Shown: positions 4,306-38,224 of the stretch, in pieces
How the letters are laid out: each line of letters opens with the position of its first letter
How positions within the stretch are numbered: position 1 is the first letter of the stretch
Source of the DNA: Halichondria panicea
Lineage: Eukaryota > Porifera > Demospongiae > Suberitida > Halichondriidae
Reading direction: 5' to 3'
NCBI RefSeq assembly: GCF_963675165.1
Contig: NC_087390.1
Coordinates: 2,494,001-2,558,000 of the forward strand
DNA: 64,000 bases
Program-made: the position numbers and the translations under genes
The notes under the pieces: model-generated
What the model saw: only the letters and a program-made list of their open reading frames with translations
What the model was told of the DNA's origin: nothing
The model's database searches: none

Positions 4306-8268
<3,963 letters not shown>

Positions 8269-8548
8269 GTAAGGCTTCATTTATACACCCATGTATGTCA
8301 AATTAATTATTTCATAGGGAAATGTCTGGTAGTAAACGCACAAGATACAAGAACATATCTTTGAAGATACATGCAAGATAATTGAAGTCACCATGCAGAT
8401 CACCAAAAGACTATGTCTATAATTATATGCAATAATTATATAATTATAACATCATTATCATTTATGTATTTGAATTTTGCAATGTGCAGTGCCTTTATTT
8501 TTTATGAATCATGCAAAACTACAAAAACTGAATGTTCAGATAATCTAC

Positions 8549-16841: not shown

Positions 16842-19100
16842 TCAATAATTCAAGTAGGCTCGGTAATTGTTTGAACGAGTCTTCTTCTTCTGGACTGCTT
16901 CAATCACAAGCTTTCGTTTGTATTCTCTCCACTTGATGGTTTGAATATAGCTCTTCAGTGCAGCTTGTCGTGTGGGATAGAACTCCATTGCTGCATTCTT
17001 CATACTCACCAACGTCTTCCAGCGGTCATAATTCTTAAACACCGTCTTGTTTACTTGGAGTATCTCCACTTTCATGTTTGAGATGACGCTCGTTCCCTCT
17101 CTCCCCTCCCCTACTCCGAAGTAGTCACCCGGTCGTAAGGTGCGTATAATCCACCATCTGATTACTCGTCGACTATCGCCACTGTTGATTGGTCGGTAGC
17201 CTGAGTGACGGTGATTGTGAGTACAGTCTGGTTTTGAGTCAGGAGATTGTGGTAGCTTTTCCTTGGTAATTAAATGAACTTGTGTACTGTTCTTAATGCT
17301 CTCAAGTAGATACACTTTTTCCGCCACAATACAAGTACCTTTGACAATGAAGAACACTTTATCGGGAGGTGAGCTTAAGTCTTTCAATATGAGGGTATCC
17401 GATGGATACTCGATAAGCACTGACCCTTGTATAGCAAAGCGCAGGTAGGTTGGATTCCATAAACAAAACAAATGGTGGTTCTTCAAATACTCCGTACGGG
17501 TATTCCATTCCCACTCATGATTTTTCCTCAACACTTCATCGTAATCTGGTTTGTCTATTTTCAAGAATTCGCAGTCCTCGTTACACACAATTGTTGCCCT
17601 CCTCCTGTCATTGTGAAGGAGTGCCAGTTCTCCAAAGCTGGCCCCCGCTCCTAGCTCACCGATAATCATGGTTTGCTTCTCTCCCGTCTTCTTGTCTTCC
17701 TCCTGCATTTCGACAACCACATTTCCGGAGAGAATAAAATAAAAATTAAATCCAATGTCCCCCTGTCTTATCACCACTTGCCTCCTCTTGAAGGACTCGT
17801 AGTAGAGCACTCTCGCTAGTTCCTTTCGGACGTGGATAGAGTAGCGATCGAAACACTTGAGACGGCTAGTAAACTGATGTATATACTTGAGCTCTTCATC
17901 TGTCCTATTGAAGGACGGTTGCATGAGGATAATCTTAGCTATCAGTGATAGTCCACCGTACGATTTCTGATTAAAGGCACCCAGATTGAAGGTAAGTCTT
18001 TGTGTCTCCTGATCGATTGCAGTTGGCATCATAGTCTTGAGATTTTTTTCAGCAGTTTGTAATCTCTTCTCCCATATTACCTTGTTCTTAACTTGAAATG
18101 CAAATCTCTTAAAGCGTAACTTGTGATTAACATTTTCTTCACTCGGTTCCTCCCTCAGCTCCGAAATGTGCTGTATAGATTTGTGGTGTTCAATTTTACT
18201 GCCAGATAGTGTACAGGTGTTGCTCTCTTCAGCCCCAATGGCACTGCCGTTCATCACCCTCTCTAGGATATGAGGAAACGGGTTTGCGATGCTGGAGCTA
18301 CGTCTGCTTGGGGTTTGCTGCATTCCAAATAATTCCTTTGAGGTCACACTATGCATGTGCCTTTCAAGGATGTGAGGGATCGGGTTTGGAAGGAGGCTTG
18401 AGTTACGTCTGCTTGAGGCTTGCTGCATTTCAGATAATTCCTTGCTGTTCATCAGCTGAGAGGTCACACTATGCCTGTGCCTCTCAAGGATGTGAGGGAT
18501 TGGGTTTGAAAGGAGGCTTGAGTTACGTCTGCTTGAGGCTTGCTGCATTTCAGATAATTCGTTGCTGTTTGTCGACTTAGAGGTCACACTATGCCTGTGC
18601 CTCTCAAGGATGTGAGGAATCGGGTTTGGAAGGCTGGAGTTACGTCTGCTTGAGGCTTGCTGCATTTTAGATAATTCGTTGCTGTTCGTCGACTTAGAGG
18701 TCACACTATGCCTGTGCCTCTCAAGGATGTGAGGGATCGGGTTTGAAAGGAGGCTTGAGTTACGTCTGCTTGAGGCTTGCTGCATTTCAGATAATTCCTT
18801 GCTGTTCATCAGCTGAGAGGTCACACTATGCCTGTGCCTCTCAAGGATGTGAGGGATCGGGTTTGGAATGAGGCTTGAGTTACGTCTGCTTGAGGCTTGC
18901 TGCATTTCAGACAATGCCTTGCTGTTCATCAGCTTAGAGGTCACACTATGCCTTTGCCTCTCAAGGATGTGAGGGATTGGGTTTGGAAGGCTGGAATTAC
19001 GTCTGCTTGGGGCTTGCTGCAGGCTAGACCCAGAATTTGCAATGGAGGGTGGTGGTCCAGTTGAGATGAAATTGGAAGGGTTGATTTCAGACGCAGCCAT
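16842..19100 (-). CDS. Cyclic-nucleotide-binding-domain protein with RRNSS repeats (CNBD2-like)
   Basis: This is one uninterrupted 752-residue frame in a neighbourhood of intron-rich genes. I take the ATG at 19100, which has G at +4. Residues 27 to about 300 are seven repeats of 34-40 residues built from SRRNSSL, NPIPHILERHRHSV and a variable tail. A basic region (RFKRFAFQVKNKVIWEKRL) precedes the first cyclic-nucleotide-binding domain (about 390-510). Its phosphate cassette reads SFGELALLHNDRRRATIV, with the Glu and Arg that hold the cyclic phosphate intact. A second domain is recognisable but its cassette (DYFGVGEGREGTSVI) is degenerate. The layout resembles CNBD1/CNBD2 proteins, known from sperm. 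RRNSS fits the consensus for cAMP/cGMP-dependent kinases, whose regulatory subunits also place such a motif before tandem binding domains. The 3' end converges on TTLL4 with 86 bases between stops. Confidence 0.85.
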   Translation of the reverse strand: MAASEINPSNFISTGPPPSIANSGSSLQQAPSRRNSSLPNPIPHILERQRHSVTSKLMNSKALSEMQQASSRRNSSLIPNPIPHILERHRHSVTSQLMNSKELSEMQQASSRRNSSLLSNPIPHILERHRHSVTSKSTNSNELSKMQQASSRRNSSLPNPIPHILERHRHSVTSKSTNSNELSEMQQASSRRNSSLLSNPIPHILERHRHSVTSQLMNSKELSEMQQASSRRNSSLLPNPIPHILERHMHSVTSKELFGMQQTPSRRSSSIANPFPHILERVMNGSAIGAEESNTCTLSGSKIEHHKSIQHISELREEPSEENVNHKLRFKRFAFQVKNKVIWEKRLQTAEKNLKTMMPTAIDQETQRLTFNLGAFNQKSYGGLSLIAKIILMQPSFNRTDEELKYIHQFTSRLKCFDRYSIHVRKELARVLYYESFKRRQVVIRQGDIGFNFYFILSGNVVVEMQEEDKKTGEKQTMIIGELGAGASFGELALLHNDRRRATIVCNEDCEFLKIDKPDYDEVLRKNHEWEWNTRTEYLKNHHLFCLWNPTYLRFAIQGSVLIEYPSDTLILKDLSSPPDKVFFIVKGTCIVAEKVYLLESIKNSTQVHLITKEKLPQSPDSKPDCTHNHRHSGYRPINSGDSRRVIRWWIIRTLRPGDYFGVGEGREGTSVISNMKVEILQVNKTVFKNYDRWKTLVSMKNAAMEFYPTRQAALKSYIQTIKWREYKRKLVIEAVQKKKTRSNNYRAYLNY
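18280..19025 (-). repeat. Coding tandem repeat, ~117 bp x 7
   Basis: Seven in-frame units encode the SRRNSS...HILER...HSVTS module of the CNBD protein. Units 2 to 5 are nearly identical, while the last (nearest the binding domains) and the first are more diverged. This is the pattern expected when unequal exchange renews the centre of an array. Confidence 0.9.
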
Positions 19101-19474
19101 CGAGATGCGCCCAGGCACTTCTCTCCAACTTAACTGTAGAGATTCTAAAATTAGCCCTATAGCTGGCAGCTAGAGTCTTTACCATGAAAGCGTACGTAGC
19201 CATAGAGATATATTTTTATACTCCAGCATCAAAACAACTCTTACATGAAAATAGCACAAAACTCAAAGACTAGATCTATAGTCTAGTATTGTAACAAACA
19301 GCAAAGATATTGGGAAAACTGGCACACAAAATCAGAGGCATCTACTAATCTAGCTAGCCATTTATTAATTTTTGTGTTCAAGATTGGGCTGTAGATATCA
19401 TTCCGCAGTCAAAACATTGTGAAACCTTCCGAGATATCAACACGAAGCAATAATTATAATCAAAGTCAGAGAAT
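19101..19474. other. Short intergenic spacer
   Basis: This 374-base spacer separates the stop of the TRAF gene from the start of the CNBD protein, both on the minus strand. It would hold the TRAF 3' end and the CNBD promoter. I see no repeat or further exon in it. Confidence 0.5.
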
Positions 19475-22204
19475 TTAGTAGATACTTTCAAGTCCGATGA
19501 GGTCCACCTTGCATTTGAGGAACAAGGTATCATCCTTGACGTAGGAGACGTTGTCAAGGACAGAAACGAGGGCGAATGTGGGACAACCTGAGGCAACGTT
19601 CATCTCATTGCGTGGTCTCTGGAATGATGAGGAGGTTGGTTCAGGACGGAACGATTGGACAATGTCCCGCTGCTTGTTCTGGTCCACCAAGGTCAGATTG
19701 ACTGCCTGTCTGAACGGCCAGGGGAGGAGGGCATCGTATTCCCCTCGCATTAGGGTGATAAAGAATGATAAGTGGGTGCCCTTCCCAGAACCATCGCCAT
19801 TCATGTAGAGCCTTAGACAGAGCTTGTATCCATGGCGACTCGTATAAAATGGAGCAGAATACAGAGATATAGTTTTCCCACTTCTAGCTTCGTTTCTTCT
19901 TCGCAGTACTTCAGGAATCTTCCAAATGAATTTTCCATCGTAGGTTGTAGCTTGTACGGTTTGCAATGTTACACCCATTTCATTAGCGGCTTCTTGCAGA
20001 TGAAATACAGCTGGTTCCAATTTGTCTGTGATATTGTCTCCCATTGTTTTTAATTTTTCAGTTATATCCGCCACCGCTTGGCTTAAAGCTTTGTCCCTCT
20101 CAGTAGCAAGTTTCTCAGTGGTTGGTTGAGGCACGCAGCGAGCGAGTAGGGCACTAGTGTTCTTGAGCTCATCAACAGTCTTGCTCACACATCTTAGATG
20201 AAACACCACGCCCTTGGATTCGTGTTCCTGGAGTTGCTTGGAAGTACCCTGCAGAAATAAAGAATTAAATGGAAAAATAGAAAATCACCAAAGAAAAGGC
20301 TGTGTTGGATTCAAGTGCATGTAGCTAATTTCGACGTACAAAACATTCAATCTCAACAATTTGGTAGAGATTTAAGATTACGCTTAGATGAAGATGCTAG
20401 ACAAGCAAAATTTATTAAACTGAAGGCTATATACAGGTACGTCAATGGCATAGTGATACTGGTATGCTTATAGTATTCATACAAACGAATAGTAATTTAA
20501 TAGGGGAAATAACCAGGGGCTGCACAGACCTTAAATGTGCAATTAGCAACAGTGCACGTAAATGATTGTAAGCGACATTCCTTCTGTAAGTGCTCGCTCA
20601 TCTGTAACAATAAAACAATAGCTAGTACATGCATATATTGAGAAAATTTGACACACAAAAGTGTAAAAAACCACTTAAAATCTGAATCTGCATCTTACCA
20701 TTCCCCTGGCAACTTTGACTCCACATTTGTTGCCACACTCGACCGCAGATGCAAGACAGTCCCTGTCAATATGTGCCTGTACGTGTGGTAGGTAGCTTAG
20801 CAGTGATACCGTACCACATTGGCATACCGTAGACATACGTTCCTGTATGTTTCTTTACAACACACACAGAAATTCAATTTAGTCAATAGGATTATTTTCC
20901 ACACAAATTAACCCAAATTCAATATAGTGTTAATACTAATGATTTAAGTCTACTGTTACTATTATAGAGCTACATACCTACCTGTATATTGCCTCTGGCC
21001 ATTGAAATCCCACACAGATGACACGACACTTGCTGGTAGTAGCACTGCTGTCTATGGACCTCCACTTGCTCTCGGGGCAACATTACCGAGCAACCACTGT
21101 TCGGACACTTCACCATCCCAAACTTGCAATCCCCCTCGTGGCTCTAAAAGTGGTTGAGGTAGAATGATATTAAGGAAATAAAACGGAAAAGAAATAAACA
21201 CAGCTTTGTATAAGAGCAAACTGGGTGGTTACCAAAGCTGCAGTCAGGGTGACTAATGACATTTTAAACAGCTCTTTAATTATACCACACCTATGCTCAG
21301 CAATAGGGTGTGAAGTTGGTGTGCAACTTCACACCTTATGACACTGCACTATAGATAATCTATAATTTCCTCTACCTCAAGGTTCTTACAGAGGCCCTCC
21401 CAGGGACAGTCTTTGTTGGAGCATTTCGCAGTCACGTTGGCAGCTTCTACTTCAACGGCTTTGTCTCGAAAACTCTGTTACAACATTTAATATAAAAAGG
21501 AGAGTTCACAATTACTGCTACATAACTAATCTATGTAAGACATTTGACGCACAATTATTAGCTAGCATAGCCAATTAGCAAAATTGAAGCATGAATTTGT
21601 GTATACAAAGTACGTTACCATTTTTGCAACAAGAAAACGAGCTACCGTTTTTCATCTAATTACAGCGCCAAATAAATTATTGCTGGGGCTTAGGTAGAAA
21701 TTATAATGCGCCCTTAAATCGAGGCTATAATTATGTAAAATTGATCTATGATATATATAACCGCACGCCTCGTAGAGCTAGTAGTATAATATTGCTCAGC
21801 CCCAAACTAGAATTATTTTTTCTTGTTCTATTTCAGTGTGTACCACTGAAAAATCATAATTAAGTCTTTGTGGTGCGCTGTAACTAGAAGATGGTTGCTA
21901 GCGCTATCAAGTAAATCAGCTAGATCTACGATCAGCAGCTTTATACTAAAAACATGCCTCAGGTAGAATTATCATTTCATGGCACACTGGACACAGTATC
22001 TCTCTTTCCCCTTTCTCCCTGCACAAATTACAAAAGCACATGCATTTTATGATAGTGGGTGGTACATGGTATACTAGGCAAGCCCACGTACCTCTCAGTG
22101 AAACAGGCTCCACAGAGCCTGTCCCCACACGTTGCCTGCCTTGGGTTGGTACCACTGATGAGATACTTAGAGCAGAAGATGCAGCGAATATTAGTTCCAC
22201 TCAT
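19475..22204 (-). CDS. TRAF family protein (RING, TRAF zinc fingers, MATH)
   Basis: Seven exons on the minus strand: 22092-22204, 21947-22018, 21376-21472, 20982-21143, 20699-20842, 20530-20601 and 19475-20248. They sum to 1434 bases, 477 residues. The RING runs from IRCIFCSKYL through ATCGDRLCGACF to ILCPVCHEMI and is complete. TRAF zinc fingers follow (CSNKDCPWEG, CKFGMVKCPNSGC, CYYQQVSCHLCG, CLASAVECGNKCG, CRLQSFTCTVANC), then a coiled coil and a full MATH/TRAF-C domain beginning TYDGKFIWKIPEVLRRR and ending in YVKDDTLFLKCKVDL. TRAFs are trimeric adaptors and ubiquitin ligases downstream of TNF- and Toll-type receptors. The exon 2/3 junction uses the second of two adjacent AGs. Broken copies lie at 1-830 and 24438-24560. 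Confidence 0.92.
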
Positions 22205-24726: not shown

Positions 24727-27700
24727 TCAGAAGAAAACTTGAGCTCGAAGTCTAGTGGTTGTTTCGGGAGCTTGCTTGAAATACAAGTGACTATAATCAG
24801 TGCCCACCTTACAGCGGACCTTGGTCATGATGGCCTCCAGCGATAAGACACTGCTGTACATACACAATGCTTTACAAAGCTCCGATATATACCACGATCC
24901 GTGTTGCAAATCCCTATAGGCAACATGACCGGGTGGAGTAGCATAAGCAAATATGAAATCGGCTACATCCGGAATCACACCATCAGCTTTAATCTGTTCG
25001 TTTTGTGTGATTTCCGGGAAGGAACGAAGAATAAATTTTCCGAGAATACTCCCCTCTGGATTTTGCCCGCTTGGACCATCACAGTCAATATCTTCACGTT
25101 CAACATCTACTGAGTTGTCGTTACCTCCGTCAGTTGCCACCATGAAACATTGCGTAGGCCCTCTGCACGCCTGGATAAAGAACATTTTGGGTTTACCTCT
25201 CAGACCAGGACAGTTACGAGCACGAAGATACTGAGTGAGTTCATAAATATCAACAGGCTGGCTGTCTGAGCCTATAAGGTTGCCATTGTCACCATGAGTT
25301 AGTATGCAACACACGAAGCTGTCGTAGTTCGAATGCTCTCTTTCTTGAATGTTGGCAAAAAGGGTACACATTTGGGCCTTGGTGAGGTCGTGGTAGGCCT
25401 CAACATTGAAGCCAAGATAACGAAATGTCATGGTGAGGTTTCGTTCATCCAACTTTGTGCCTTTTCGAGTATCGTGTTTCTTAAAATTTTCATTATTGAT
25501 GATCACTGCCAAACCATGGGGCTGTTTTTCCATTGAATACTTTTCTTCGTGAATCGACATTGGGTTTTCTCCCAGGAGAGGTGAAACGAGACCAAAACTG
25601 AGGCGCACACTTTTGTGCTTGACTTCTCCTCGTATACATGCTCCACAGCAATCAAAATGAAGTTTTTCACCATCGGCCATTGTTCTAACGGTTTTTTGGA
25701 CATGTTCGCTGTAGCTCAATGGTTGTGCATCTGTAGGGATAGGAAAAGGTTCAATAATCTGTAGTCTATAGCTTTAACAAATCATAATAAAGATTGTACC
25801 TTGTGTTTCCTGGTGGTGAGTAGAAGAAGGCTCCACTGGAAACTGGGTCTGCTGGACTTCCTGTTGATCCTGAGAATCTTCGAGCGATTCGGGCGAGCAT
25901 TGATTTGTGGTTAGTGAGGGGGTGCTCTGCACAATAGCGGAAGAACCGCCTATTTGGTTTGGTGAGTAATGTTCTTGACTGAATGGTACTTGCTCTGGAG
26001 CCTCGGTCACACTGGAGCGCATTGAGGTACACTGTTCAGGTTCTTCGATGTTAGCAGCTGGAATCAGTTGGGGCATGTTTTCTTTGAGGTCTTTCTTGAG
26101 ATCGTGCTTGATGGGTGAGGCACTAGCCATGATATTTTGTGGGGGGGAGGCATGTGGAGGTTGCTGCCGAGCTGTGCTTTGTTTAGGACTTCCTTGGATG
26201 GTGGACGGAAGTATCCTTAAATCCTCGGGCTTATTTGGCAATACCAAAGAGTTATTTTCCAACCTGTCTACAGTTTTGTGATATGTAACAGGAGGCCCAT
26301 TCTCCGCCTTGTACATTCCTCCCTGAGTTTGATGAATGGCAAAACTCGTGTATCCTTCTTCAGAACTTGCACTTGCAACAGCTGGTGGCTTGGTCGCGAC
26401 ATATTCATTTGTATCTTCGGGAATAACTCGTCGATTTGCTTCAGTTAGAATTGGTAGTCTCTCACAATCACGGTCCATACTTTGATCACTCCACTCAGTA
26501 TCAGTCATGCTTGTATTTAAATGGGGGTTCCGAATGATATTCGGTGGACTTTCACCAGGAATAGCTGGCAACACGTCTCCACTCGCATTTGGGGGGTAAA
26601 CAGGAGCACTAGAATATTTCCCATGGGTTGCACGGTATCGATCGTCGACATGAACATGCTCTCTGGGGGGGTTATCTGTCGGTAGTGACAAATTGCCTTG
26701 GAACTCACTAGCATACGTGCTCAGTGATGATTGTGGAGTTGTGGCACTTGTAGTTTCGTCGTCGTATCCATCTTGTTGATATTTCGTCGAACTGTAGACA
26801 TCACGATTTTCTCTTGCACCAAGATGTCCATGTTCAGCACCCATGACAGGGAGATTAGGAGAAGGAAAGGGAACTGTGTTTGAGGGGTTGCTGAAGATCG
26901 AGGACTTGAGACCACTAACACTACTTGTCGAGACATCATCATCGAAGCTACTGTACTCGCTGAGTGTAGAGCTACCCACGCTTGTTTGGGTACCGAGTGA
27001 GGAATTCATTGCTGTGGCGAGAGATTCGTTATCTCTAGATAATGGTTGCTGATTGGGGTCTTGTGGTACTTTTGGTTGTTGATTGTGGTTTTGTGGAGGA
27101 GTACCACTTTTTAGTTGGCGCTGTCCTCGTTGCTGTTCCAACACATTTGCACCACGCTGGCCAACAAAAGCATCTTGCTGTTGCTCATTTAAAATTTCGT
27201 GTCGTTTGTCAGCTTGAATAAACTTTTGCTGATTGATTGTCTGAGGGATAGCGGTCTTAGGGGTTATTGGAATTCCAACACTCATTTCAGACATTTTGCT
27301 AGCAATGTGAAATACAGCAGGGTCATTATGCGATTGTTCATACTGCTGATCTCTTCTGGGTTCATATGCCGCTCCACGAATTGGTGTCACTTCTGTTTCA
27401 CGGTTTGTAGGGCCACGTGAAGCTAGTGGAACAGTTCCTTGAGTATTTGGAGTACTAGTGGGTTGTTGATGTTCCACATTTGGGGATCTTTGAGAGGAAA
27501 GTGGACCCCAAACACGACGTGAAGAAGGCGGGCTCTGATCAGGAGTACTTTCAGTAGTTACAGAATCGGGTATATCCATATTCCGGGGAGTATTGAGGCC
27601 AACAATCCTAGAACGTCCTCCAGGTATGTTTTCTTGGTAGTTCTCGACAGTAGTAAAAGTTTGAGATAGTTGCTGACTTGCTGCAATCGTTGGTTTCGAT

Positions 27701-29080
27701 TGATTTTGGGTGAAGCCCTCAGATCGTGTCAGTTGTGGAGAGTAGTAGGCACCGGCCATTGTTGATGGCTGCTGGTTTGGAACTCCAGCTAGATCCATGT
27801 TGTGAAGCCGGGTAGAATAGCCAGTAATCATCTCCGTACGAGGGGTTTTCTTGCCTTGGTGTGATTGAGATTCACCTTGATGAGGCTGCTGATAATCATC
27901 TTGCATTCGTCCGTGCTGTCTATGTGAGCTCGCATGAGGTACGGGAGGTTGGGTTCCGAGGTTGGGCTGCGGTGGTACACGAGTAGCCATTTTCTGATAA
28001 TGTGTGTAGCATGGGTCACGTTGTTGTGCTTGATGATCGTACTGTGGATGAGGTTGTGGATTGTGTGAATGGTCATGCCAGGAAGTTGGGGGATTTTCAA
28101 TACTTCCTGCTGGCTCATTAATAGGAGCTAAACATCTTCTTTGCACGTTTTTACGATCAGAGGGGTTCGGATAGTATCGTTGCTGAGGAGGTCTTTGAAA
28201 ATTGCTAGGAACTGGGGTGTGGTGTGGCTGGGAATCAGTATATAGTGGAAGATTCTGATACACGTTTTGCTGCAATGGTGTAGGAGCAGTCGAATGATGC
28301 GAATGGTCGTGTGGATGATTACAGGGGGGTGCAGCTGGGGTTGGGGGTGCGGAACAACGACGTTGCGGATCGTGTAAACTGCGAGCCACTTCCTCTTGAT
28401 TTCTCTTCATAGTAACGTCCACGAACGATCTTGACGATTCTTCAGTGGAAGGTATTTTTTTTGAGGTCCCCACTGTGAGGAAAAAAGTTAAAATTAACAC
28501 CAAGACAAAACCAAAAACATTAGTTAATAGGCATGCATTATCACCATGGTGATAATAGACATTGTCAGGAGCGCAGGATGGATACAAGCAGTTAACATAC
28601 ACTTACATCCATGATTTGCAGCAATTTTCTTAGCAAGCCTATGGTTGTTACCCCCCATGGAATTGCTGACAGCAGCGATAATGTTCCTCCAAGTGGGGTG
28701 TCCAAATTTATCGGTGTCATGGTTCCCCAGCACGTACTCGTCCAAAACCGCCTGCAAGCCTTGCCTCTGCTTGTACCTGTAATTGTCCTGTAGCTGTTTC
28801 ATCATTCCACGCGCAATACCGAGAGCACATCCAAACAAAAAAAACTCTGAGGCTATGCCATCAAGTTCGCTGGCAGCACTTACAACATCATCTTCATCTG
28901 TTTGTTGCATGTGCGTGTGTTGGGAGCAATGGGGGGGGGGGGGGGGGGGGAGGGGGGTAAACATCACTCTCGGCTATATAAAAAGCAGTGAGCCCTACGT
29001 ACGTACGTACCTAGAATACTGTCATCCACCTTCAACAAATCTATGTCCTTGACTCGGTCCTTATTATTTTTCTTGCTCAT
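24727..29080 (-). CDS. Caspase A: death-type domain, long disordered linker, caspase domain
   Basis: Four exons on the minus strand: 29011-29080, 28607-28897, 25800-28472 and 24727-25730. They sum to 4038 bases, 1345 residues; every junction is phase 1 and in frame. Exon 2 encodes a death-type domain (GHPTWRNIIAAVSNSMGGNN, then LAKKIAANH). Exon 3 is about 890 residues rich in Pro, Gln, Ser and Thr, with no recognised fold. Exon 4 is the protease: CCILTHGDNG has the catalytic His (about 1157) and FFIQACRG the catalytic Cys (about 1200). HDTRKGTKLDE and VAYRDLQHGSWYI carry the Arg residues that bind the substrate Asp. Most animal caspases are 300-550 residues, so the linker is exceptional. A DIPDS motif near residue 420 could be a self-cleavage site. 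Probable role: death-domain-triggered cell death or immune signalling (inferred). Confidence 0.92.
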
Positions 29081-29583
29081 CTTGATCTTCAAAAGACCAA
29101 CGTTTATAGTAGAGAAGAGAGTGCTTGATGGCACAGGAGGAGCTACATGAAGCTAGCTAACTGGTCTACTGAAGCGCTACGTTATTCAATAATCATAATT
29201 TATTATGCATATGCAACAACCCATGTTTGGTATACGGTAGACTCTATAATTGTGTTTGGGTAACCCCCCTCCCCCCTAAAACATAATCAGCTGACTACAC
29301 GTATCTAGGGCCAAGGGGTAATTGATCCAAAACACTAACATACGTACTGTACATGTCAGTGTTTATAATCAGTTGACCTACATGTATATAAGTCGTTACA
29401 AAATAGATCAACGTACTATAGCTAAATGTAACAAATTGTATCAGCCAAAAAACAAAGTGCATCATACAAAACATATAAAGTGACTATTATAATTGTGTAC
29501 TAGAGTCTACTCTACAAAAACGATCTACAGAAACACACAAATCTTATAAGTTCACAAACTACACTCTATAAAATTACATAAGT
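29081..29583. other. Spacer between caspases A and B
   Basis: These 503 bases hold the presumed caspase A promoter and the 3' end of caspase B. I see AT-rich sequence and repeated TACATGTA-type strings only. Confidence 0.4.
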
Positions 29584-34513
<4,930 letters not shown>

Positions 34514-34733
34514 CTTGATCTAAAAAGCATTCCTTTTACAATGCTAGCCTGCTATATATATATAGATCTAGCTAGATCTTTTCTTGGTTGCCCATAGCCG
34601 GCCTGCCTAGCGCCTGTTAGCCTGAAAATCATTATTACGCAATGTCATGTGGCTCTTTTGCATACTTAGGGAATTCCCTACTTTGTTCCCACACGTACTT
34701 ACCTACAATCCCAATCCAAGCATCCAAGCAGAA
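34514..34733. promoter_or_regulatory. Head-to-head intergenic region, caspases B and C
   Basis: Start codons of two divergent caspase genes are 220 bases apart. The gap should contain both promoters unless 5' exons lie elsewhere. It has a run of TA/GATCTAG-type sequence near 34554-34580 and no recognised motif. Confidence 0.5.
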
Positions 34734-37700
34734 ATGGCTGACCTGAAGTTGGAGAATGTTGATAACAGTGAACTAGGTGAGTAATTATGTATGCAATTTA
34801 ATATCTCCTTAGTTGAATCCCTCTCAATAATTATGCAGACATAGAAGATCTAGTGGATGTTCTAGAAGCCATGGAGGACGTCGCTGTTAAGTACAAACGT
34901 ATCGGAGCTGCTCTCCGTATTAAAAACGGGGAGCTACAGATTATTGAGAAACAAAATCGCCACGATCCGAAGGCTGGTCTCAGTGCAGTCCTTGAAAATT
35001 GGCTCAATCTCAACTATTCGGCAAAGAGGGGGGAAATCCAACAGCCCCCGTCTTGGCGTAAGGTGGTGGAAGTCGTTGCCAAGAGCGTTGCGGGAGGTAA
35101 CCACGCTTTGGCCAGGAAAATAGCATCCGATCACCCATATATACGTGAGTTTAATCAGTGCATGTTCTTTAAGTGGTTGTCTTGTACCAGTACATACATG
35201 TACATGTACATATATCTTGTACCTTAATTAAGTGGCTATCATTGTTTTAACGTCCTGGTATTCCAGAAGCTTATAATGCGCTGTACTTGCAGTGTATGGC
35301 GAGCTTATGTCTAAAGCTTGTATTTATGGTGTAGACAGTCTATTATACGTGTGACCTTAATCATGTAGTTATCTACATAACGTATAGCGGGTATATTTCG
35401 AGGGTATAAATTTTCGCGGATGTGCTTTTAGAAAGGTTTTTGCAGATTTCATTTTCGTGGAATAGCGTCTTTTTTGCAGCATGCATGCATGAAATTAAAT
35501 TTGCGGTTATAAATGTTCGCGGTTCATGCCTAATTCGCGAAAACCACGAACATTTATACCCTTGAAATATACCCTCTATACGGTAATCAAATGGAGCACA
35601 ATTCACTTATCCACTCACACACACACCCACACAGGTACTATTGGCCCCCCAGTTGTCAACACTACCACTACAGAGGAATTATTAGGACCCACAGAGGAGG
35701 TCTCTCTACCGTCCAATCAAACGGCTTTTATGCCGTCGGCAATGGCCCTCCCACAAGAACAATCGCACAATCTGTCCAGTGACATGGAACGTGACATGGC
35801 AGGCCTCAATATTTCAGCAAATCCTGCTAATCAAGTGGCTAGTACTGGCCAGCCGCATGAATGCTGGGAGGAGGAGGGTCAAGCTCGAACAAATACTACT
35901 GAAGTAAAGAAAGCACTGAGGTTGGCAAACAATCAAGATAGCCCGAGCATTCAGTCACAGCCACAAGCTACACCATCGAGCACCGTTTATCAGAGCAATG
36001 TCGCTGAAGAGAACAATAGAACATTCTCAAATGTGCAACAACCGCCAGTCAACAATCCTCAACCGATGGAATATCCCCTGCAGAGTATGACCCACAACGA
36101 GCACCCCCAGCAACTACCCCCCACAGAGGCCGTGATACCTACCTCCCCAGCAGCACTACCTGGTCCAGATAGCGAGCTGGCCGGTGTACATGCTCCACGT
36201 AGACAGGACACAGTTGCTGCTCAGCCTACTGACGAGGGTGTTTGTACTCAGTTGTTGATTACGCCCACCGGTAATGTACGCCGGACTGTGGCTAACAAAG
36301 ACGAACTCGACTCACCTTCAAAACCTATGCCAATTTCAATAGTAAATAATCCTATCCCCCCTTCAGCTCATGAGAAACAAGCCCCAGCATCGTTTGAAGA
36401 AGCTAACACTGCTAATACAATTTCACAAGGCTCGAGTCAAACCTTTGTACAACATCAACCACCTCCAGCGCACGGTGAGCCGCCTGTCTCAAGCTTATCT
36501 CAACCACAACAGCTACGCACGGTTTTATGCGGTGGAGGACAGCACCAAGTGATGAACAATCAGCAACCTCAACCAAGTGAAATGCCCCCAAGACCTCCAC
36601 CTCTTCAACAGGCACCTTATCAACCGAACACCCATTACAATCCGGTGTATTTGCATGGACAGCCTAACCCACAATTTAGTATGCAACCCCAGCATCCGTA
36701 CAATCTACAACAAAGCACAATGATGCCACAGCAGCAATTGTACATGCATCCACCCACAAGTCTACCCTTCCCTCAGTCGTATCCAGCTCAATGGCAATCA
36801 CAAGTTCCTTTTGGCCAATACCATCCCTGGAATCAGCCTTACCCTGGCTATGGCTACCCTATACCTCAACCACATCCACTTCAATACCCTCAAAACATGC
36901 AAGCTGGACCTCCTAACATGCAAGCGGGACAACCTAACATGCAAGCGGGACAACCTAACATGCAAGCGGGACAACCTAACATGCAAGCGGGACCTTATAA
37001 TATGCAAACAGGACCTCATAATATGCAATTTGGACCTCCCAACATGCAAGCAGGACCACCTACTACTGGTAATCAGTTTGTACCACCCTCCTCTCAGATG
37101 CAGCAGTCAACACCTGCTACAGTGATCCAACACATGCCTGGCGCTATGACGGAGACTTCTGGTCCTCAAGCTACAGCCGAGGAAAAAGTTGGAACACCTC
37201 AGGAAGAGATGAGCAGGGACAAAGGTCAGTTTAAAATGTGCATTAATCAACGTTTTAATTTTTTTTTTCGGTAGGCGAAGTTCATTTAGAGGCGGCAATC
37301 GTACACATGAACGACGGACAAGTCTTGACAGATCGTGGTAAACGAGTCACTCAATACGATCCGTTTTCGAGAGAAAAGAAATTCTTTAAAATCAGGCTAA
37401 CTTGTTGTGCAGCAGAGCCCCAAAGAACTGGACTGGAAAGATATCAAGTACCTGATAATGAAAAGTACGATATGACAAATTTCCCTCATGGGATCGCTGT
37501 GATTATCAACAACAAGACATTTAAGAGCGAGCAGTGTCGATATGGTACCGATGTTGACTGTAGAGATTTGGTTCTGACTTTTCGTTACCTTGGTTACATT
37601 GTACTCGAGTACAAAGATCTATCTGCTAAAGAGATCCATGAAGTCATCGACAAAGTACGCACCCTAGATGATCTCAAGTACAATAAAGAACGTATTCGTG

Positions 37701-38224
37701 ATCATTCAAAATTTGACAGCTTTGTGTGTTGTATTTTGAGCCATGGGGAGAACGGAGTGGTATACGGTATCGACAGCACGAAGGTTCAAATTACACACTT
37801 AACCTACAAACTCAGAGCTGACGTTTGTCCGTCATTGGCTAAAAAACCGAAACTATTCTTCATTCAAGCATGTCGAGGCCCTCAAGTTGACGGAGGCAGC
37901 GATAGCGATGATTTTTTGATAGCTAAAAAAGATGAAACTGAATTTTCTGCAGTTACTGATGCTTCAGTATCTAAAGTTGCCGATTTTTTCGTTGGTTATT
38001 CCACATCAGCCGATTTCGTTTCTTTCCGTGATAAGGAAAAAGGGACTTGGTATATTTGGGAGCTGTGTGATGCGCTCTGCTCCCTCAGCACCAGTCGACC
38101 CCTGAGGGACATAATGGACGTGGTACATGAGAAAGTGAACACTGAACATTCATTCTGTGAACACAGACAAGCTCCCATCTACGAAACAAGCCTCAGGAAG
38201 AAAATATTTTTCTGGACATTGTAA
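34734..38224 (+). CDS. Caspase C: death-type domain, disordered linker, caspase domain
   Basis: Four exons: 34734-34776, 34839-35144, 35635-37224 and 37275-38224. They sum to 2889 bases, 962 residues, phase 1 throughout like caspases A and B. Exon 2 encodes a death-type domain (YKRIGAALRIKNGELQII ... PSWRKVVEVVAKSVAGGNH). The 530-residue linker is Pro/Gln-rich, with a run of NMQAGQP heptads near its end. The caspase exon has CCILSHGENG (His about 803), FFIQACRG (Cys about 846), CRYGTDVDCRDL and FVSFRDKEKGTWYI, so the catalytic and Asp-binding residues are present. It differs from A and B by an insertion in the large subunit (RTLDDLKYNKE) and a short large/small-subunit linker. It is transcribed away from caspase B and converges on PEN-2. 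Confidence 0.92.
35380..35585. mobile_element. ~205-bp CCGTATAGCGGG-family element
   Basis: It begins CGTATAGCGGGTATATTTCG and ends CTCTATACGGTA, with further internal pairing (GGGTATAAAT against ATTTATACCC). It fills the intron before the caspase C linker exon. Related copies are at 4746-5663, 40295, 50766 and 54592. Confidence 0.7.
36895..37055 (+). repeat. 21-bp coding tandem repeat in caspase C linker
   Basis: About eight units encode variants of PNMQAGQ. The central units are identical in DNA sequence; outer ones drift to YNMQTGP and HNMQFGP. It lies at the C-terminal end of the disordered linker. Confidence 0.9.

Follow-up and report, generated by a model that had tools for sequence, protein, structure and literature searches.

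Three adjacent genes of the sponge Halichondria panicea, designated g1, g2 and g3, are predicted to encode caspases in which the protease is separated from an N-terminal death-type domain by a very long low-complexity linker. The genes lie in a window of 64,000 nucleotides, which is the whole stretch of DNA analysed, and the genome (131 Mb, 39 contigs) was examined as well. The unusual feature is the length of the linker, as 600-1032 residues lie between the death domain and the protease core, compared with 100-206 residues in four relatives. We consider it probable that g1-g3 are paralogous initiator caspases that are recruited through the death domain, held on a long flexible tether and freed by a cut at an Asp-Gly step.

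The three genes were confirmed as sequence-based gene models by rebuilding them from splice sites on both strands. Each has four exons, with g1 and g2 on the minus strand and g3 on the plus strand, and the exact closure at 1345, 1420 and 962 residues given in the preliminary description was reproduced. All nine introns are of the GT-AG type and all nine are in phase 1. The prediction supports one gene in each case (Table 1).

The protease and its death-type prodomain

Exon 4 of each gene matches the caspase family PF00656 (cut-off 21.4 bits) with 190 bits for g1 (E 6.6e-56), 182.6 bits for g2 (E 1.2e-53) and 164 bits for g3 (E 6e-48). In caspases, a histidine and a cysteine carry out catalysis, and two arginines form the pocket for the substrate aspartate. 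The motifs of the histidine (LTHG/LSHG), of the cysteine (QACRG) and of both substrate-pocket arginines are present in g1, g2 and g3, as had been claimed for these residues. The best PDB sequence matches of g1 were caspase-3 and then caspase-8 (best 60 of 219 matches, with g1 as the only query), and the caspase exons of g2 and g3 are 50% and 43% identical to that of g1. The step between the large and the small subunit is KADG in g1 and g2 (found by script) and VTDAS before VADF in g3 (found by eye). By domain, catalytic residues and this inter-subunit aspartate, g1-g3 would be classed as caspases (Peptidase C14A).

A search of a protein collection with the caspase exon of g1 gave 516 matches, of which the best 120 are listed. 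Possible cut sites were counted in these 120 and in g1-g3, that is, in 123 sequences, whose related rows are not independent. Of the 101 sequences left after 22 were skipped, 97 have Asp-Gly/Ser/Ala at most 22 residues ahead of the small subunit, against 54.3 expected by shuffling; g3 is among the 97, its parse having stopped early. The prodomain junction, taken as the region that lies 20-65 residues from the end of the stretch under examination, was scored in 65 sequences (11 had no core motif and 47 were too short). Here, 58 of them, g1-g3 included, have Asp-Gly/Ser/Ala where 30.3 were expected by shuffling, and Asp-Gly specifically was counted by hand in 55, for example as VSVDGG, VSADGG, IVPDGG and IETDGG. 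The aligned Asp-Gly is invariant among g1-g3, and g2 has two further D-S/D-G steps 7 and 10 residues upstream of it. Cleavage is predicted at this junction. Inside the linkers of g1, g2 and g3, D[GSAN] occurs 7, 5 and 3 times, compared with 11.3, 10.6 and 2.5 expected (lower-tail p 0.081, 0.025 and 0.77), which is suggestive of an avoidance of self-cleavage within the linker in g2 only.

The nature of exon 2 was approached by structure prediction. It was modelled with AlphaFold2 for g3 and g2, and both models, of moderate confidence, align best with solved DEATH domains, ahead of CARDs. In the structural lists, which are a second look at Foldseek matches, the first 20 entries for g2 and the first 21 for g3 are or contain DEATH domains. 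The g2 model has six helices; in the g3 model, seven helical pieces are present, and the first and second of them adjoin. When relatives were scanned with Pfam, Death was the sole non-caspase family in four of five, always below the cut-off. Among five paralogous exons of the same genome, Death was the best-scoring Pfam family in three and there was no match in the other two. Exon 2 of g3 and g2 is assigned a predicted death fold of the DEATH type because of the structure models and these relatives. Exon 2 of g1 would be a death-type domain by similarity (34% identity to g3 over exons 1-2, and the hidden Markov model (HMM) of the family). With a death-fold prodomain on a caspase, predicted for g2 and g3 and likely by similarity for g1, the three proteins would be initiator-type caspases.

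The Pfam profiles are the weak point of this assignment. Exon 2 of g3 reaches 19.6 bits with Pfam Death, which is below the cut-off of 22.6, while exon 2 of g1 and of g2 has no Pfam Death match and gives chance-level matches to other families only (E 0.21 and 0.28). Because the cut-off was not reached, the domain is termed death-type and is kept out of PF00531. Two other prodomains were considered, of which the CARD was rejected. There is no Pfam CARD match in exons 1-2, and the CARD structural matches are lower; a Pfam DED match is likewise missing from exons 1-2. No row of the structural lists aligned to a DED, an absence that proves nothing, as these lists re-examine Foldseek matches. The death-type prodomain of the preliminary description is upheld by the models of g3 and g2 and by the relatives, but not by the profile search of exon 2 against DEATH, DED and CARD, in which g3 alone matched Death, and only below the cut-off.

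Relatives in sponges and elsewhere

Among the matches listed for the g1 caspase exon, 16 proteins were examined, and four of them (P0185, P0150, P0203 and P0216) unite all three parts, namely a death-type domain, a linker and a caspase, in a single chain. P0185 (Ephydatia muelleri EMCRGX_G004616, 551 residues) resembles g1-g3 in having the motif VDDTILGEDD, a linker, a caspase, an Asp-Gly junction and a death-type domain, which stays below the Pfam Death cut-off (E 0.017); a VDD motif also occurs in g1 exon 1. P0150 (Geodia barretti "Caspase-8", 433 residues) likewise has a linker and a caspase behind a death-type domain that does not reach the Pfam Death cut-off (E 0.13), and it is annotated as Caspase-8 though Pfam shows no DED. 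The difference lies in the spacing from the death domain to the protease core, which is 206 residues in P0185, 100 in P0150, 158 in P0203 and 141 in P0216, as against 961 in g1, 1032 in g2 and 600 in g3 (domain end set by eye). The layout, which was to be sought in other sponges, was found in P0185 and P0150, but with much shorter linkers. It had been stated that known initiator caspases carry CARD or DED prodomains, which is not supported in view of these two proteins, and that no described caspase of this layout was known, which is too strong in view of the four proteins, of Hydra caspases and of a frame on contig C11 (see below). Because the basic layout occurs in other sponges with far shorter chains, it is the giant linker that is new.

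The frame on contig C11 of the H. panicea genome encodes 387 residues (L017, with a near-identical copy, L018) and joins a death-type domain (Pfam Death E 0.21; own family HMM E 1e-4) to a caspase. A caspase frame is preceded by a death-type exon on the same strand at L014, at L016, at L019 and in the second L017/L018 gene; no such exon was found at L015 (C11). The C11 caspases differ from g1-g3 in that their six frames form a separate clade (100/100), and their linker length is read only from the single 387-residue frame. L017 and L018 (1.83 and 1.84 Mb) are two copies, 9.7 kb apart, of one arrangement, in which a pair of death-type caspase genes is divergent. Their caspase domains are identical, and the two copies represent either a recent duplication or an assembly effect. 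L013 on contig C10 is similar in having a death-fold prodomain, a Q/P/S-rich linker and a caspase, but its prodomain is DED-DED (Pfam E 1.8e-28) rather than a death domain; its linker has about 340 residues with a coiled-coil-like stretch, as judged by eye from unspliced sequence. Exons of the same death-type subfamily as g1-g3 exon 2 also occur at L035, L036 and L042 on contig C4. L035 is followed on the same strand by a Lipase_3-like frame (E 0.00036, just under the cut-off), and similar frames are seen by eye at L036 and L042. In two stretches behind the paralogous exons of contig C7, no domain was recognised by eye.

A tree was made of 43 caspase domains, which came from the three window genes, 24 of 220 collection proteins (chosen by hand) and 16 frames of the same genome; two identical rows and one short row were left out. 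In this tree, g1 pairs with P0101 and g2 with P0105 and P0107, each at 100/100, and g3 and several other rows are long branches of unsure place. As g1 and g2 pair separately with these relatives, the split between them predates their split from P0101, P0105 and P0107. The closest of the listed matches, such as P0101 (77% identical to g1) and P0107 (94% to g2), begin near or inside the protease exon.

A search with the caspase part of g3 gave 100 matches among 1334 candidates of about 529-1683 residues, most of them with a DED. The longest match has 936 residues and none is named as a sponge protein, which is weak evidence on giant relatives, since the same search missed P0185. A search with residues 1-120 of g3 found no match with E up to 10 in 366 candidates, and P0185 was missed again. 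The scan of prokaryotic genome contigs and viral contigs revealed no relative of g1-g3.

Type I metacaspases are a different protease family with a zinc-finger prodomain and are not known to be Asp-specific. One of them, Arabidopsis MC1, resembles g1-g3 in that a prodomain predicted to be disordered precedes a protease of the caspase fold (PMC10473220). Hydra caspases carry an N-terminal Death Domain (PMC4715348) and are thus similar in their prodomain, although the comparison is with a description that, in its accessible part, leaves out the linker. In bivalve caspases, as reported, a death domain is also present in the prodomain but follows two DEDs (PMC7836458). The insect caspase Strica has a long low-complexity prodomain, rich in Ser/Thr, and the abstract names no death domain (PMC4924790). 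The open-access literature yielded no caspase in which a death-type domain goes together with a linker of more than 500 residues, with queries mostly not aimed at the exact layout. No death-domain caspase with a giant linker is described in the accessible parts of PMC8195603, PMC3196919, PMC9798719, PMC2246300 and PMC3591282.

The linker and explanations of its length

The linkers of g1, g2 and g3 (891, 958 and 530 residues) are 2.7, 2.8 and 1.7 times as long as the protease exon; the earlier figure of two to three times is correct for g1 and g2 but not for g3. The longest open frames of exon 3 have 890, 957 and 529 codons, whereas dinucleotide shuffling of each exon-3 stretch, done 200 times, gave frames of no more than 231, 223 and 223 codons. 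No Pfam match was found in exon 3 of g1. By charge-hydropathy, the three whole linkers fall on the disordered side, in line with the earlier expectation, and all six death-domain and caspase parts fall on the ordered side. In windows of 51 residues, 721 of 841 (g1), 700 of 908 (g2) and 402 of 480 (g3) were disordered in the linkers, and 86 of 284, 133 of 294 and 47 of 266 in the caspase exons. The method is coarse, because windows of the caspase exons also score as disordered.

Several explanations of these linkers are partly compatible with each other and with a tether. There is close to an even chance that the linker has no dedicated role and is a tolerated, repeat-expanded sequence, the proteins acting like sponge caspases with short linkers. 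The linkers of g1 and g2 share short, weak matches alone (best E 0.01) while half of the residues of their caspase exons are identical. Repeats are present in g2, where a tandem duplication of 152 + 161 residues has 94 of 146 aligned residues identical, and in g3, where a 21-base unit occurs eight times at 36894-37062. Between the g2 units, the ratio of nonsynonymous to synonymous divergence (dN 0.21, dS 0.42) is about 0.5. When nine motif types were searched in the three linkers, none was significant over the 27 tests (best TRAF2/3-type in g3, p 0.016), and the four relatives manage with 100-206 residues. However, the ratio is still below 1, direct repeats of at least 30 bases were not found in the g1 linker, and very long linkers are kept in all three paralogs, with frames of up to 957 codons open.

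It is rather unlikely, though worth considering, that exon 3 is an alternatively spliced cassette and that the giant form is a regulated variant of a common compact form (about 430-460 residues). Exon 3 has 2673, 2874 and 1590 bases, all multiples of 3, with phase 1 introns on both sides, and can be predicted to be skippable in frame; compact relatives also exist. This symmetry is not specific to exon 3, however, since exon 2 is likewise flanked by phase 1 introns. It seems improbable that the linker is a module for condensation or scaffolding by which the zymogen is concentrated, in the manner of the disordered regions of type I metacaspases. The low complexity and the charge-hydropathy disorder of the linkers are consistent with it, and there is a precedent in Arabidopsis MC1, which is reported to be recruited to stress granules, and released from them, by means of its predicted disordered prodomain and 360 loop (PMC10473220). 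The linkers are not strongly prion-like, though, with a peak of 19-21 Q+N in any 60 residues, and show no motif enrichment. The preliminary description suggested phase separation, scaffolding or delayed activation as roles of such a linker, each of which is conceivable. It would be very surprising if the models wrongly joined separate genes or reflected an assembly error. Internal exons of 1.6-2.9 kb, as here, are unusual, and the models derive solely from DNA sequence. Against such an error, exon order and phases are identical in the three genes, P0185 and P0150 each bear the annotation of a single protein, P0203 and P0216 look like single reading frames as judged from the protein, and the 387-residue frame of the same genome joins a death-type domain and a protease.

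Gene layout, possible partners and proposed mechanism

Table 1. Features of g1, g2 and g3 in the window
Feature	Position	Strand	Basis
g1 exon 1: start codon and KDIDLLKVDDSIL motif	29011-29080	-	gene model
g1 exon 2: death-type domain	28607-28897	-	34% identity to g3 over exons 1-2; family alignment and HMM
g1 exon 3: 891-residue low-complexity linker, phase 1-1	25800-28472	-	open frame vs shuffles; charge-hydropathy; no Pfam match
g1 exon 4: caspase catalytic domain, residues 1012-1345	24727-25730	-	PF00656; PDB sequence matches; catalytic motifs
g1 Asp-Gly dyad RTMAD/G (slash: predicted cut), predicted prodomain-removal site	25669-25674	-	junction motif
g2 exon 1: start codon and KDIDLRNVDDTTL motif	34447-34513	-	gene model
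g2 exon 2: death-type domain	33835-34122	-	
g2 exon 3: 958-residue low-complexity linker, phase 1-1, internal tandem duplication (152 + 161 residues)	30872-33745	-	
g2 exon 4: caspase catalytic domain, residues 1077-1420	29584-30617	-	PF00656; motifs
g2 Asp-Gly dyad RPCED/G, predicted prodomain-removal site	30547-30552	-	junction motif; cut inferred
g3 exon 1: start codon and NVDNSEL motif	34734-34776	+	gene model
g3 exon 2: death-type domain	34839-35144	+	
g3 exon 3: 530-residue low-complexity linker, phase 1-1	35635-37224	+	open frame vs shuffles; charge-hydropathy; repeat
g3 exon 4: caspase catalytic domain, residues 647-962	37275-38224	+	PF00656; motifs
g3 Asp-Gly dyad VHMND/G, predicted prodomain-removal site	37313-37318	+	junction motif; cut inferred
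220-base gap between the divergent g2 and g3 start codons	34514-34733	.	coordinates

From its coordinates, the gap between g2 and g3 is a possible shared promoter. Intron 1 of g2 contains 136 copies of TG (34124-34395) that run into the splice acceptor of exon 2, and length variation of this run could affect splicing. Intron 3 of g2 contains a 26-base tandem repeat with TGTACA palindromes (30677-30800).

A profile search of the genome gave at least 148 Death matches (150 of 503 candidates scored) and at least 102 NACHT matches (102 of 265 scored). In 14 control genomes, Death was matched in none and NACHT in 11, over the cut-off in three. At least six NACHT matches (four on contig C15 and two on C10, counted by hand) have an upstream Death match on the same strand within 2.2 kb, and H. 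panicea appears to have DEATH-NACHT receptors. For Dysidea avara, a DEATH domain at the N-terminus is reported in 25 of the 126 NLRs rated as bona fide, and in Amphimedon queenslandica this type of NLR is said to be the dominant one (PMC12909245). Receptors of this type could directly recruit a death-domain caspase. In a study of a sponge receptor, FADD and CASP8, in which their death-fold parts were tested, the adaptor is reported to be supersaturable, and not the receptor or the effector (PMC13012725).

Other frames of the window include Death domains at 7215-7559 and 7923-8306 on the plus strand (Pfam E 0.00017, just under the cut-off, and 1.6e-8), about 16 kb from the caspases, with three more Death matches at most 26 kb beyond the window start on the same contig. 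A TRAF-type MATH domain (PF21355, E 7.3e-48) is located at 19475-20284 on the minus strand, about 4.4 kb from the caspase cluster, and a frame at 6652-7089 on the plus strand resembles this type by eye, with no Pfam match over the cut-off. The minus strand at 16842-19169 encodes a cyclic-nucleotide-binding protein (E 1.6e-22), in the N-terminal part of which a unit like MQQASSRRNSSLxPNPIPHILERHRHSVTS recurs several times, as judged by eye.

In the tethered-caspase mechanism proposed here, the death domain of exon 2 would bind other death domains, such as those of DEATH-NACHT receptors or of adaptors, and thereby gather caspase zymogens. The gathered protease domains would dimerise and undergo self-cleavage, both between their subunits and at the Asp-Gly junction, and the mature protease would leave the death domain and the linker behind. 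The long linker would mainly be a flexible tether that extends the reach of the protease and lowers its local concentration around the death-domain cluster. According to a hand estimate from polymer scaling, with a spacing of about 960 residues in place of 100, the effective local protease concentration would be about fifty-fold lower, so that the giant form should be harder to fire, with a higher activation threshold than that of short-linker relatives. The linkers of g2 and g3 would have grown at least partly by in-frame tandem duplication. A more speculative extension, to which we give little weight, is that the giant skippable exon sets the tether length and that splicing or repeat-length variation tunes the threshold of cell death, possibly via linker-driven condensation.

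In the best-known animal pathways, death receptors are reached by way of separate adaptors. From the genomic side, the genes described here add to the evidence that a sponge caspase can have a death-type domain of its own, as predicted. Since a compact death-type caspase frame and giant-linker genes are present in one genome, the effect of tether length may be approached directly, and the junction motif provides a testable cut site.

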